Assembly: GCA_003151985.1 (NCBI GenBank) | Contig: PLZC01000073.1 | Span: forward strand, 18,612-52,157 | DNA from: Acidobacteriaceae bacterium | GTDB lineage: Bacteria; Acidobacteriota; Terriglobia; Terriglobales; Acidobacteriaceae | Reading direction: 5' to 3' | DNA: 33,546 nucleotides | In this document: positions 9,773-33,546 of the stretch, one piece after another | Layout of the letters: each line of letters begins with the position of its first letter | How positions within the stretch are numbered: the first letter of the stretch is position 1 | Notes under the pieces: generated by a model | The model's input: only the letters and a program-made list of their open reading frames with translations | What the model was told of the DNA's origin: nothing | The model's database searches: none | Program-made: the position numbers and the translations under genes

Positions 9773-11214
9773 AGAGAATGAAAGAGATGGCCGTGCTCGC
9801 GGATCGGCTGCTTCCGAAGAACAAGTTGACAAGGGCGATTTGGTTCGGCTCGCTGTTGATGAGCGTGGCGCTGCTGATGCTGCCATTACTCTTCAAGTTG
9901 GATGGCAGGCCGCACACGGACTGGGAGCAATTTCTGGGACGATTCCATCCGCTGATGGTGCATCTTCCCATTGGGCTTATCGTATTGGTACCGCTGCTTG
10001 AGATTGCCGGAGCCTTCCGGCCGGCGCTCCGTGAGGCCGCGGGATTTGTACTTGGCTTGGCATTCGTCTTCTGCCTCGGCGCGTTAACGCTTGGCTACCT
10101 CCTTGCATACGGCAGCGGAACCGTAGGTGTCGTCATGACGCGGCATATGTGGGGCGGGATCGCATTGTCCATCGCCGTACTGTTATGTGTGCTGGCGCGG
10201 CCTTGGTGGTCTATTGGAGCCGTCCCACGAGTGTATCCGGCGATGCTAACTGGCTTGCTGCTGCTGTTGGCTTGGACCGCGGACCAGGGTGGCTCCTTGA
10301 CGCATGGAAGAAATTACCTCACCGAATACATGCCGGTTTCGCTAGAGAATATCTTCGGGGGCAGAGCCGTTCAGGCAAATGCACCAGGCTCCGGGTCGTT
10401 TTACGTCAAGCAAATCAGCCCAATCCTCGACGCAAACTGTTTCGTCTGTCACGGCGAGGGAAAGGTCAAAGGCGGCTTGCGCATGGACTCCTATAACTTG
10501 CTGATGAAGGGCGGCAAGGATGGACTTGCCATTGTCCCGGGCAGCCCGGAGAAGAGTCTGTTGCTTCAGCGCGTGACGCTCCCATCGAGTCACAAGCAGT
10601 TCATGCCCGCGGAGGGCAAGCCGCCATTGAAGCCGGAAGAGATCGCGCGGATCAAGGCATGGGTTGAGCAGGGAGCTTCGCCCATTGCGACGACCGTTGC
10701 GGGGATCTCGACCAGCAACGAGTCGGCGGAATTGCCGCTGCAGCCGGTGGCGGACTATAGCAGCGTACTCTCCGAAATCCAGCAGATAGACAAGGGCCAG
10801 GGAGCGAAGCTCGTGCAGGTATCGAGCAAGCCCTCGGATGGATTGATTCTGAATACGGTGGATGTCGCGGCAAGCTTCGGCGATGCGCAACTTGCCCAGT
10901 TCCAGAAGTTCGCACCCTATATAGTCGAAGCGGAGTTGGGGCGTACCGCTGTGACGAATGCGAGCTTCGATGCGTTGAGCAGGTTTACTCACCTGCGCGC
11001 GCTTCACCTGGAAGGAACCGGAGTAACCGGAGACGGACTTGCGAAGCTTGCTCCTCTATCAGAATTAACTTACTTGAACCTAAGCGGGACGAAGGTAACC
11101 GCGGCAGCCGTGGCATCGATTGGATCAATGAAGAATCTTCGTCACGTCTATCTCTATAACACTCCAGCTCAACCGGCGGTAGCGATGCAGACTATCGCGA
11201 GGAATACGCAATGA
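9769..11214 (+). CDS. DUF2231-like membrane domain + PSCyt1-type cytochrome c + leucine-rich-repeat protein
   Basis: GTG start overlaps the previous stop (GTGA at 9769-9772). RFHPLMVHLPIGLIVLVPLLEIAGAF, ILDANCFVCHGEGKVKGGLRMDS, LRALHLEGTGVTGDGLAKLAPLSELTYLNLSGTKVT. Confidence 0.85.
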   Translation: MKRMKEMAVLADRLLPKNKLTRAIWFGSLLMSVALLMLPLLFKLDGRPHTDWEQFLGRFHPLMVHLPIGLIVLVPLLEIAGAFRPALREAAGFVLGLAFVFCLGALTLGYLLAYGSGTVGVVMTRHMWGGIALSIAVLLCVLARPWWSIGAVPRVYPAMLTGLLLLLAWTADQGGSLTHGRNYLTEYMPVSLENIFGGRAVQANAPGSGSFYVKQISPILDANCFVCHGEGKVKGGLRMDSYNLLMKGGKDGLAIVPGSPEKSLLLQRVTLPSSHKQFMPAEGKPPLKPEEIARIKAWVEQGASPIATTVAGISTSNESAELPLQPVADYSSVLSEIQQIDKGQGAKLVQVSSKPSDGLILNTVDVAASFGDAQLAQFQKFAPYIVEAELGRTAVTNASFDALSRFTHLRALHLEGTGVTGDGLAKLAPLSELTYLNLSGTKVTAAAVASIGSMKNLRHVYLYNTPAQPAVAMQTIARNTQ

Positions 11215-12290
11215 ATCGAACTCCCGGTCAAGATAGAACAAGCGGATTGGACAGGCGGCGATTTATCGCTGTGACTGGAGCCACTGCGTTGGCCGCTCTG
11301 GCGGGCACGCGCGCCAACGCGCAGGCGGGTAACGCAGCTAATAACTCAAGAGGAGGAATGATGCAGACAGGAAATGGCGAGTGGACTTACCAGGTAGTTC
11401 CGGGATGGGGGCAGTTGCCCGCGGCAAAGTCTTTCGGCGGGACGCACGGAGGAATTGCAACCGACAAGGCCGGGCACGTCTACGTCAGCACACAGAGCGA
11501 GACAGGGGTCTTAGTCTATAGCCCGGATGGTGTGCTGCTGAAGACGATTGCCGGTGAGTATCCCGAAGTTCATTCGATGGTCTATGCCGAGGAGAATGGC
11601 AACGAGTACTTCTACGCCACCGTGCAGAAGGGAACGCCGAAAGAGAACTGGCTGTTCATCAAGATGAAGACGGACGGTACGGTTGTGCAGAAGATTACCG
11701 CTCCTGCGGAAGCTGGCTTCAAGGCGCCAAACGAGTGGCGGTTAACGGCGGCGGTCTCCGGGCCAGATGGCTCCATCTTCATCGCCAATGGTTATGGTGA
11801 CTCGCGACTCTTCAAGTTCGACAAGAAAGGGAATTATCAGGCAAGTTATTCCGGTAAAGGGACCGCGGATGGCTTGATGGATTGCAGCCACGGGTTAGCC
11901 GTCGACCGCCGCTATGACCAGCCGCTGCTGCTTGTCTGCGACCGCGAGAACCGTCGCCTCTGCCATTTTGATTTCGATGGAAAATTCGTGCGTACGGTAA
12001 CCCAGCATTTGCGCCGGCCATGCCAGATCAGTTTTCACGGTGACTATGCGGTAATTTCCGAACTCGAAGGTCGCGTCACCATCATCGACAAAGACAACAC
12101 CCCGGTCGCTTTCCTCGGCGATAATCCACAAAAGAAACAGTGGGCAAATTACCACCTTCAGCCAGGCGAAATCGCCGCCACCACCTTCAGTGCGGCGCAT
12201 GGATGTCACATCGACTCGAACGCCAACATCTATGTTTCCGATTGGAATCAAACCGGCAGGGTAACCAAGCTCGCGAGGGTAAGCTCATAG
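11211..12290 (+). CDS. Tat-exported NHL/6-bladed beta-propeller protein
   Basis: ATGA overlap with previous gene (11211-11214); DRRRFIAVTGATALAALAG Tat-like signal; propeller-type repeats (GIATDKAGHVYVSTQSETGVLVYSPDGVLLKTI, HGCHIDSNANIYVSDWNQTGRVTKL). Confidence 0.8.
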   Translation: MNRTPGQDRTSGLDRRRFIAVTGATALAALAGTRANAQAGNAANNSRGGMMQTGNGEWTYQVVPGWGQLPAAKSFGGTHGGIATDKAGHVYVSTQSETGVLVYSPDGVLLKTIAGEYPEVHSMVYAEENGNEYFYATVQKGTPKENWLFIKMKTDGTVVQKITAPAEAGFKAPNEWRLTAAVSGPDGSIFIANGYGDSRLFKFDKKGNYQASYSGKGTADGLMDCSHGLAVDRRYDQPLLLVCDRENRRLCHFDFDGKFVRTVTQHLRRPCQISFHGDYAVISELEGRVTIIDKDNTPVAFLGDNPQKKQWANYHLQPGEIAATTFSAAHGCHIDSNANIYVSDWNQTGRVTKLARVSS

Positions 12291-29602: not shown

Positions 29603-29670
29603 TGGTGCCCGGAGGGGGACTTGAACCCCCACGATCTTGCGATCTGCGGATTTTAAGTCCGCTGCGTCTA
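29603..29670 (-). pseudogene. Truncated tRNA-Leu(TAA): 3' part with CCA, lacking 5' acceptor strand and most of the D-arm; probable att remnant
   Basis: - strand TAGACGCAGCGGACTTAAAATCCGCAGATCGCAAGATCGTGGGGGTTCAAGTCCCCCTCCGGGCACCA: anticodon stem GCGGA/TCCGC with TAA, long variable arm, T-arm GGGGGTTCAAGTCCCCC, 3' acceptor TCCGGGC-A-CCA. The expected 5' GCCCGGA is absent; the sequence upstream of TAGACGC is unrelated and AT-rich (TATTATATATGAGCAGCTTGAGAA). Confidence 0.88.
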
Positions 29671-30008: not shown

Positions 30009-30968
30009 CTAGGAACCCGAACTCTGCCTGAAGCAGTTCAAGAAAGCGGGTAGGTCCTCCTTGATGGTCTCAAGCTGGTGCTGGGATTTCGCGAATACCT
30101 GCCGGTAGGAATGGGACGCCATCCGGAGGTTCATGATCTCGGCATACCTTGCGTCAACTGTCGTGTCCGGGGGAACGTTCTGGCTAGACGGCTCCAGAAC
30201 GAGGAGAGCCTTCGTAGGTGACAGAGGATAGTAGACGTCGAAATTGGCAGGCGGCTCGTTGTTGGTCGGATTCGCGGCTAGGTTGATCAGCGGCTGGTCA
30301 GCGGTCACAAACGGGACCTTGCTCGGGTTGTCGATCAGGATGAATTTGTGGAGATGGCGCTCGACGTACAAACTGAACCCGACGTTTACCGCCACCATAT
30401 GGACGAGAGGGTTGGCGATTCTCATGTAAATAGCGAAGCGCTCGGCAGACATCGCTTGCTCGCTTTGCTTGATGTGGTTTGTACGGGCATATTGAACCGA
30501 AAGGCTGCGATAAAACAGTGCCGCCTGTTGGTCGTTCTGCAGGAACGAGGTATCACCTGTGCGAAGCGCGTCGAGATGTTTCTGGAAATCGTCTTCGATG
30601 GCGGTATGGAGGTCCTCGTTAGTTTCGCGGATCGCGCGTTCAAGAGCCAGTTCTCTTTCGGGTGTAGCATCGCCGGTTTCTCGTAGGCGTTGCCTTGCCT
30701 CATGCGGAAGCATCATCGAGTACAACAGAAGCTCGTGGCTCTGGCGTAATCCCTCTGGAGATTTGGCGATCACCACCCGGCGAATGAATTCGGCATCTTC
30801 ATGGGTGATTTCCTGAAGACGATAAAAGTAATTCTGCGCTGCGACGCCCTGAAGATTGGGACGGAATATCTCGTTTTCTTGCAGGCAGTAGATCAGCTTC
30901 TTTTGTGCCCAAGCCTGAAGGTAAAAGCGCGGAACATAATGATGGAGTTTCTTCCCGATGGCGGGCAT
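30009..30968 (-). CDS. DUF4238-like protein
   Basis: N-terminal LHHYVPRFYLQAWAQKKLIYCLQENEIF...VAAQNYFYRL and central FVTADQPLINL match the pattern I associate with DUF4238. Confidence 0.75.
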   Translation of the reverse strand: MPAIGKKLHHYVPRFYLQAWAQKKLIYCLQENEIFRPNLQGVAAQNYFYRLQEITHEDAEFIRRVVIAKSPEGLRQSHELLLYSMMLPHEARQRLRETGDATPERELALERAIRETNEDLHTAIEDDFQKHLDALRTGDTSFLQNDQQAALFYRSLSVQYARTNHIKQSEQAMSAERFAIYMRIANPLVHMVAVNVGFSLYVERHLHKFILIDNPSKVPFVTADQPLINLAANPTNNEPPANFDVYYPLSPTKALLVLEPSSQNVPPDTTVDARYAEIMNLRMASHSYRQVFAKSQHQLETIKEDLPAFLNCFRQSSGS

Positions 30969-31128
30969 GAAGGCATTTTACGGTATGCGGGGAGTAGTCA
31001 AGTGGCGATCTCCCGCCGATCCTGAAGCTGATGTCATGCAGCGATATTCTTGGTCCTATGGATCTCAGCGTTTTCTTCACAGTTTACGCAATCGTCCAGC
31101 TCCGCTCCCCCTAGCCTATATTTGGAAC

Positions 31129-31881
31129 ATGGCCAACAACTGCATCTTCTGCGGCAACCCCGCTGGAAGCCGTGAGCATATCTGGCCGAAGTGGATTCTC
31201 GAGAGGAAGAATTTCGGGCCCTTCCGTCTTAAGCGCGCGGGCGCACCAGATCTTATCCTTAACACCGAACTGACAACAAAGGCCGTCTGCCACGGCTGCA
31301 ACACTGGCTGGATGAGCAAGCTTGAGGCGGCACTTAAGCCCATTCTTGAGCCGATGTTTGAAGGCAAGAGTGTCAGCTTGGATATCTATCAACAACAGCT
31401 AATTGCGCTGTGGATGGTGAAGATGGCTTTCGTGTGGGATTCAACCAAAGGCCGCAACACAGACAACGCATTTTTTCGGAACGCTGACGGCATCGCGCTT
31501 GTGCAACGCATCATGCCGCCCTTCACTGCGGTGTGGCTTGGTCACATCGGCAGAGACTACCGGTCGGCGGACGGGCATGACATCACTCTTGATGAGCCGC
31601 CGAAGCGCGTCGGCGGCGGCAACGTCGTGACCATCGTCAATGAGCAATTCGTCGCCCAGATCGTGAGCCTTCGCCCCGACCAGATGCCCACGGGACCGAC
31701 GGCTATTCAGCTCGACTTTCCTCCAGGCAATTGGAACAACACATTGATTCGTGTTTGGCCGCAGGATAATGCCAATCCGATCGAATGGCCGCCACCGGCC
31801 GCACTCACCATTCTCGATTACCTTCTGCTTAGAGATCGATGGCGCACAGGCGACGAGACAGATCATATTATCCACTTGTGA
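31129..31881 (+). CDS. HNH-like / zinc-finger nuclease-like protein
   Basis: MANNCIFCGNPAGSREHIWPKWILERK...AVCHGCNTGWMSKLEAALKPIL: CxxC..REHIWP..CxxCNxGW pattern resembling HNH proteins. ORF extends to 30958 but ATG at 31129 immediately precedes the motif. Confidence 0.65.
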   Translation: MANNCIFCGNPAGSREHIWPKWILERKNFGPFRLKRAGAPDLILNTELTTKAVCHGCNTGWMSKLEAALKPILEPMFEGKSVSLDIYQQQLIALWMVKMAFVWDSTKGRNTDNAFFRNADGIALVQRIMPPFTAVWLGHIGRDYRSADGHDITLDEPPKRVGGGNVVTIVNEQFVAQIVSLRPDQMPTGPTAIQLDFPPGNWNNTLIRVWPQDNANPIEWPPPAALTILDYLLLRDRWRTGDETDHIIHL

Positions 31882-32009
31882 TTGTTCTTTCCGTCACTAA
31901 ACCGCATGCCCCAAATAGATCCGATCACTGCAGGATCAACCCGCAGCAGGTGTGCCCTAAACAACATGGTTCGATTCTACCCTTTCGCTTGCGCACTTAT
32001 GATTACGGT

Positions 32010-32252
32010 CTATACGGGCGGTTCCGGGTGCTTCTTGCAGATGATGGAAAACGTCCCTTCCTCCTCCTCAAGCTCTAATTGGCAATAATGCTCCTTGACG
32101 TGCAACTGCATCGAGGTCAAAAGGTCGATACTGATGCGGGTTCGTGCGGTCATTTCGCGGCTTCCAGCAGTTGGTGCGGCGGAAGCATTGTGGACAGTTT
32201 CGAAAAGTGCGCAAGCACTTCCTTTCGAGGGCTGCTGCGTTTCAGATCTCAA
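32010..32252 (-). CDS. Possible small protein overlapping the end of the HEPN-like gene
   Basis: 80-aa ORF from TTG 32252 overlapping the HEPN-like stop at 32242; alternative internal ATG start (MTARTRISIDLL...). No recognised family. Confidence 0.25.
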   Translation of the reverse strand: MRSETQQPSKGSACALFETVHNASAAPTAGSREMTARTRISIDLLTSMQLHVKEHYCQLELEEEEGTFSIICKKHPEPPV

Positions 32253-33192
32253 CAGGCTCGACTGGAAACTCAGGATCGTCTGTTTTTGGTGCCGGCGGAG
32301 CTGGGAGCTTTTTCACCTGGTCGTCGATCGCACCAGCGAAAGCGAGGACCGCTTTGTTAAGTGCCAGGATCTTTGGCAGATCCCATGAGCCGTCCTTACC
32401 GCCGCTAGTCTTGCCGTTGCGATGTACGATGTCGTGCCGATCACGGATACCGTTCGCAATCGTTGGGGGTGTTTCAGGGAATTTGATATCGAAGGCGCGC
32501 TTAAACATCATGCCCGACTCTTTAAGCATGTGCCAGTTGTGCGCGAGCACGTACGATCGAACCTCCGCGTCGATTTTCTTGAAGCGCTCGAAGATGTCGC
32601 AAAGCTTAATTTCCGTGTTCCGGAAATGCGGTGTTTTGAATACGAAATCCTCAAGGTACTGATCGCTTGCGGAGAGTGTTTTCATGAACGAATCTCCCAA
32701 GAATGTTTCCAAGGCTGTGATGACGTTGGCGAATAGCAATTTGTGAAGAGTTTTTTGCTTCGCCGCAGACGTCTTGATTTTTGCGGCACTTTCGATTTCG
32801 TTCATGCTCCCTAGGAGCGTCAGCAACGGATCGGTACCGCTGTCGATCAAGTCGGCAAGGTAGTCGTCGTCGAAGTCCTCATCGCTGGGCTTACCGGACC
32901 ACTCGTAGTTAATATCTCTCAGTTCCGAGACAAGTTCTTCGATGGCGTCATCGGATGCTATGCCACCGAACTCATTTTCAATGACATCTCTCGCGTCGTA
33001 AGGTCCGCCCCAAATCCACTGGAAACCGCCTTCGGATGAATCGTAAGGAAGCTCATCCGGCGGGTCGTATCGGCCGTCGAACCAGTGCCGCATTAGAGCA
33101 AGCTGGTCGTCCTGAGTTAGCTTCTTGACCTTCGAACCGGCGATGTGCTCGCTGGTCCTCGATAGAAAATAGCTTCGGCGTTTGCGGGGCAT
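32242..33192 (-). CDS. HEPN-domain-like protein (RiboL-PSP/MAE_28990-type HEPN suspected)
   Basis: ANVITALETFLGDSFMKTL ... NGIRDRHDIVHRNGKTSGGKDG contains an R-x4-H motif (RHDIVH) at 32422-32439 typical of HEPN ribonucleases; N-terminal GGPYDARDVIENEFGGI segment. Confidence 0.7.
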   Translation of the reverse strand: MPRKRRSYFLSRTSEHIAGSKVKKLTQDDQLALMRHWFDGRYDPPDELPYDSSEGGFQWIWGGPYDARDVIENEFGGIASDDAIEELVSELRDINYEWSGKPSDEDFDDDYLADLIDSGTDPLLTLLGSMNEIESAAKIKTSAAKQKTLHKLLFANVITALETFLGDSFMKTLSASDQYLEDFVFKTPHFRNTEIKLCDIFERFKKIDAEVRSYVLAHNWHMLKESGMMFKRAFDIKFPETPPTIANGIRDRHDIVHRNGKTSGGKDGSWDLPKILALNKAVLAFAGAIDDQVKKLPAPPAPKTDDPEFPVEPVEI

Positions 33193-33467: not shown

Positions 33468-33546
33468 TAGTGCTGTATCAGAAGCGCCCTCCCAAAGCGC
33501 GTGCAAACTCGAACTGTTGCGCGCGGGCGCTCCAGATACAGCACTA
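33468..33546. repeat. 22-bp inverted repeat (2 mismatches) ending exactly at the window end
   Basis: TAGTGCTGTATCAGAAGCGCCC (33468-33489) versus GGGCGCTCCAGATACAGCACTA (33525-33546). Confidence 0.85.

Follow-up and report, generated by a model that had tools for sequence, protein, structure and literature searches.

Three intact genes beside a tRNA-Leu(TAA) fragment

The window analysed here, i.e. the whole stretch of 33,546 nucleotides taken from an Acidobacteriaceae bacterium (contig PLZC01000073.1), carries the following features towards its right-hand end:

29604-29669, minus strand: 3' fragment of tRNA-Leu(TAA), an att-type scar, recognized by its similarity to intact tRNA genes
30009-30968, minus strand: DUF4238 protein, 319 aa, matching PF14022
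31129-31881, plus strand: HNH_5-related zinc-finger protein, 250 aa, with the motif CxxC...EH.W..W...CxxCNxxWMS
32242-33192, minus strand: HEPN/RES-NTD1-HEPN protein, 316 aa, matching phrog_17908 and, weakly, PF18870 and PF18735, with an Rx4H motif
33470-33546, no strand assigned: dispersed palindromic repeat outside any gene, with inverted ends TAGTGCTGTATC and GATACAGCACTA

The three open reading frames named in the initial annotation were all recovered, intact and with their conserved residues kept, and the DUF4238 and HNH-like genes do have divergent starts about 160 bp apart. The reading frame of the HNH-like gene is open from 30958, and Met 31129 was taken as its start. This position is the most likely one, since the homologues start at the same MxxxCxFC in the family alignments. 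Searches with PADLOC, NCBIfam and PDB sequences gave nothing useful for the window proteins.

The presumed att scar at the boundary of an island is a genuine tRNA fragment. It comprises 66 nt with up to 97% identity to the intact 87-nt tRNA-Leu(TAA) genes of same-genus genomes, and the similarity breaks off sharply at 29669. ARAGORN detected the intact 87-nt tRNA-Leu(TAA) in 11 relatives and no intact copy in the window; in 20 relatives, the stretch upstream of the TPR gene is devoid of tRNA. The 3' end of the fragment points left, towards the TPR gene. From the way in which tRNA-integrating elements leave scars, the element would be expected on the right-hand side and to cover the three genes. 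Several same-genus genomes contain second, shorter tRNA-Leu matches covering only query positions 9-66, which are perhaps further integration scars at the same tRNA.

Neither an integrase nor a second att was found next to the three genes in the window, the end of which is also the end of the contig. Any integrase and the far end of the island are out of view, because the contig stops at 33546 in the dispersed palindromic repeat. Copies of this repeat (TAGTGCTGTATC...GATACAGCACTA), 56 bp long and 95% identical, were found on two further contigs of the same genome, C241 and C116, the latter of which starts with its copy. The repeat is likely to be a small dispersed element at which the assembly was interrupted.

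The DUF4238 protein belongs to a known one-gene anti-phage family

The DUF4238 protein matches PF14022 over nearly the full model (E 2.5e-22, 80.1 bits, where the Pfam gathering cut-off is 27 bits), which bears out its initial family call. In the tree, it groups with DUF4238 proteins encoded on plasmids (clade support 100/97), apart from the distant lineage formed by the DUF4238 proteins of two other loci, L066 and L131. The closest viral relative of the window protein that we found is encoded on the viral contig L234. A DUF4238 gene is also present in the P2-like phage Smp131, where it adjoins the integrase. At L066, the gene beside DUF4238 (10139-11419) gives a weak match, below the cut-off, to the CAP12/Pycsar TIR domain, and this TIR-like neighbour suggests a defence island.

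The word "uncharacterised", initially used for the module, does not fit DUF4238. It is a named one-gene anti-phage system: when one DUF4238 gene was cloned out of a P2-like hotspot of E. coli, it conferred strong protection against T7, the molecular function of its product being unknown in that study (Rousset et al., 2022; PMC9122126), and later surveys list DUF4238 as a defence system. The window resembles this system in having a single DUF4238-domain gene, of a kind carried on mobile elements including Smp131. It differs in the host lineage, and the likeness is one of domain; a nucleotide search with four DUF4238 genes did not locate the tested E. coli sequence. By analogy with the experimentally supported homologue, the window protein would most likely be a sole-acting anti-phage effector.

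The HNH-like protein is a divergent relative of HNH_5

The HNH-like assignment, based on the CxxC, EH and CxxCN motifs, is supported by the invariance of C5, C8, E16, H17, C54, C57 and N58 across 23 homologues. The window protein itself has no direct Pfam match. However, 11 of these 23 family members match HNH_5 (PF14279), albeit weakly (E up to 0.5, best 9e-6), and the core could be aligned by hhalign with an HNH_5 protein at 96%. The window protein thus shares with HNH_5 the CxxC...EH...CxxCN zinc-finger core, and differs from it in missing the model, in its WMS motif, and in a long C-terminal part. A further difference is the loss of the His in some relatives: in two of ten other members (L068:8862-9611 and L074:8093-8908), both from Acidobacteriota, the EH-motif His is replaced by Asp. 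Therefore, not all HNH-like proteins can be standard HNH nucleases, and these two may represent inactive or altered forms.

Structure prediction with AlphaFold, which had been proposed as a check, yielded models of the HNH-like and DUF4238 proteins (pLDDT 86 and 77, respectively), and neither model found a confident match in fold searches of the PDB. The best-scoring hits were hot-dog thioesterase-like chains for the HNH-like protein (Z 3.7, rmsd 3.5, 85 aligned) and helical chains for DUF4238 (Z 4.1). These missing matches are not evidence for a new fold; for the HNH-like protein they mean that the putative nuclease fold rests on motif and profile rather than on the fold search. Homologues of the HNH-like protein were located in prophages, plasmids and genomes. 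A PADLOC scan of their neighbours returned defence genes as one-off hits only, with no recurrent partner. Its motif suggests that the window protein most likely acts alone, in metal-dependent DNA cutting or DNA binding.

The HEPN protein probably has a previously described architecture

The HEPN protein matches phrog_17908 with an E value of 6e-35, and the Rx4H motif on which the initial call was based (RHDIVH, R252 and H257) is invariant in six homologues, where it is conserved together with an N-terminal PY.S.EGG block. Both Pfam matches are below the respective cut-offs (PF18870, the HEPN/RES-NTD1 model, 18.7 bits with a cut-off of 27.4; PF18735, the RiboL-PSP HEPN model, 19.9 bits with a cut-off of 28.4), which makes the window protein a divergent member. 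Here too, the label "uncharacterised" proved unjustified, since the fusion of HEPN/RES-NTD1 to HEPN was already listed by Anantharaman et al. (2013; PMC3710099). As in that architecture, an N-terminal HEPN/RES-NTD1-like block is followed in the window protein by a HEPN domain with Rx4H, and homologues are carried by prophages and plasmids. We found them on conjugative plasmids and in 55 viral-contig loci, and one (L079) adjoins a phage integrase. Single-sequence viral searches with HEPN and with DUF4238 were empty; the viral homologues of both were retrieved with alignment queries. From the invariant Rx4H and the published biology of HEPN proteins, the window protein would most likely be a lone RNase triggered by phage or stress, with an N-terminal domain that senses or restrains the HEPN domain.

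One HEPN homologue, in genome G298, has an in-frame stop within the matched stretch. This stop, the two Asp-for-His substitutions among the HNH homologues, and a contig that retains only a scar and cargo with no integrase seen would all fit a defunct island whose genes are decaying passengers with no present function. All three window genes are nevertheless intact with their conserved residues kept, and we regard such decay as unlikely.

The three families do not form a conserved neighbourhood in the loci surveyed

To what extent do the three families go together elsewhere? The same 396 genomes of the phylum were searched with each of them, and matches were found in at least 38 genomes for DUF4238, at least 11 for the HNH-like family and at least 4 for HEPN. 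These counts are lower bounds, because the genome search with PF14022 missed the DUF4238 gene of L066, which was found via the flanks. Where one genome had matches to more than one family, these were located on different contigs or separated by hundreds of kilobases; the exception is one pair in G415, a genome from the window's own family, and this pair came to light only through the flank analysis. In this analysis, a profile for each family was run against all open reading frames in the flanks retrieved around the matches. Reading frames were picked by a plain greedy procedure, the loci under study also served to build the profiles, and those that came out of one search are not wholly independent of each other.

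A HEPN gene was found beside a DUF4238 or HNH-like gene in none of 58 other loci, and the HEPN family was absent from the flanks read at all 37 other DUF4238 loci. A conserved three-gene neighbourhood is therefore absent from these loci, contrary to the initial proposal that the three genes constitute one uncharacterised defence module. That proposal is left with the physical adjacency of the genes in this window only, and their alternating strands make a single operon impossible. We consider it highly improbable.

The DUF4238 and HNH-like genes have a somewhat closer relationship. Among the other HNH loci, 52 in number, L066 and L131 have the two genes side by side. These two loci are almost identical and represent a single lineage, the genes being convergent and 10-43 bp apart. 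In addition, at one of 37 other DUF4238 loci, on the viral contig (L234:2204-4540), a different HNH_5 protein is encoded upstream of DUF4238 in tandem, by phage tail genes. Co-occurrence in genomes is also slightly above chance (4 genomes vs. 0.94 expected, P 0.009), and the neighbourhood P value is about 0.001-0.02, both judged against a uniform-chance expectation. These observations could be taken to mean that the two genes are a loose defence pair sharing a divergent promoter region, with HEPN as an unrelated neighbour. By contrast, the partner is missing at 50 of the 52 other HNH loci, 36 of the 37 other DUF4238 loci lack an adjoining HNH-type gene, and the tested DUF4238 was active as a single gene (PMC9122126). 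The association is sporadic: the orientation differs each time (divergent in the window, convergent in L066/L131, tandem in L234), and the DUF4238 lineages involved are distant. We hold a pair of this kind to be improbable, and slightly more so its specific form as a two-component anti-phage system of unconserved order, in which the HNH protein would be an optional nuclease arm of DUF4238. The excess over chance can be explained by common residence in islands; there may also be a weak functional tie, loose and somewhat above chance. As regards L131 and L066, the pair on a MAG contig labelled Formivibrio (Pseudomonadota) is nearly identical to that of G415, and this reflects either recent transfer or mis-binning.

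Conflict genes probably acquired independently at a tRNA-Leu site

Our findings indicate that the locus probably holds three one-gene conflict genes acquired separately where an element integrated at tRNA-Leu. The segment would be the margin of a genomic island, or of an island remnant, beside the tRNA-Leu(TAA) scar, with the three genes gathered independently by horizontal transfer and sharing a locus but not a mechanism. We favour this reading because the tRNA-Leu fragment breaks sharply and is intact in relatives, because the family distributions differ (at least 38, 11 and 4 of 396 genomes), and because HEPN never adjoins the other two elsewhere, while the DUF4238-HNH adjacency is rare. 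It is also consistent with the grouping of the window DUF4238 with plasmid proteins, away from those of L066/L131, and with the experimental activity of DUF4238 as a one-gene system (PMC9122126). Finally, distant bacteria have homologues of each family on their plasmids, prophages and islands, and in most cases the remaining two families are missing there. Against it stand the DUF4238-HNH adjacency in one independent lineage, the HNH_5 gene abutting DUF4238 in L234, the co-occurrence of the two families in genomes somewhat above chance, and an island that is visible on one side only, without an integrase. The defence or conflict role that had been proposed for the locus is plausible overall; its experimental support concerns DUF4238, in a homologue (PMC9122126). 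We infer the activity and mechanism of each gene, as we do the direction of the island.

We find no support for a new three-gene system. Instead, the locus adds new members to three families of conflict genes, and it flags the tRNA-Leu(TAA) site as one that holds defence-type cargo. The HNH_5-like family, with its CxxC/EH/CxxCN-WMS signature, its presence in prophages, plasmids and islands, and its negative result in PADLOC, is a reasonable candidate for a single-gene defence system.
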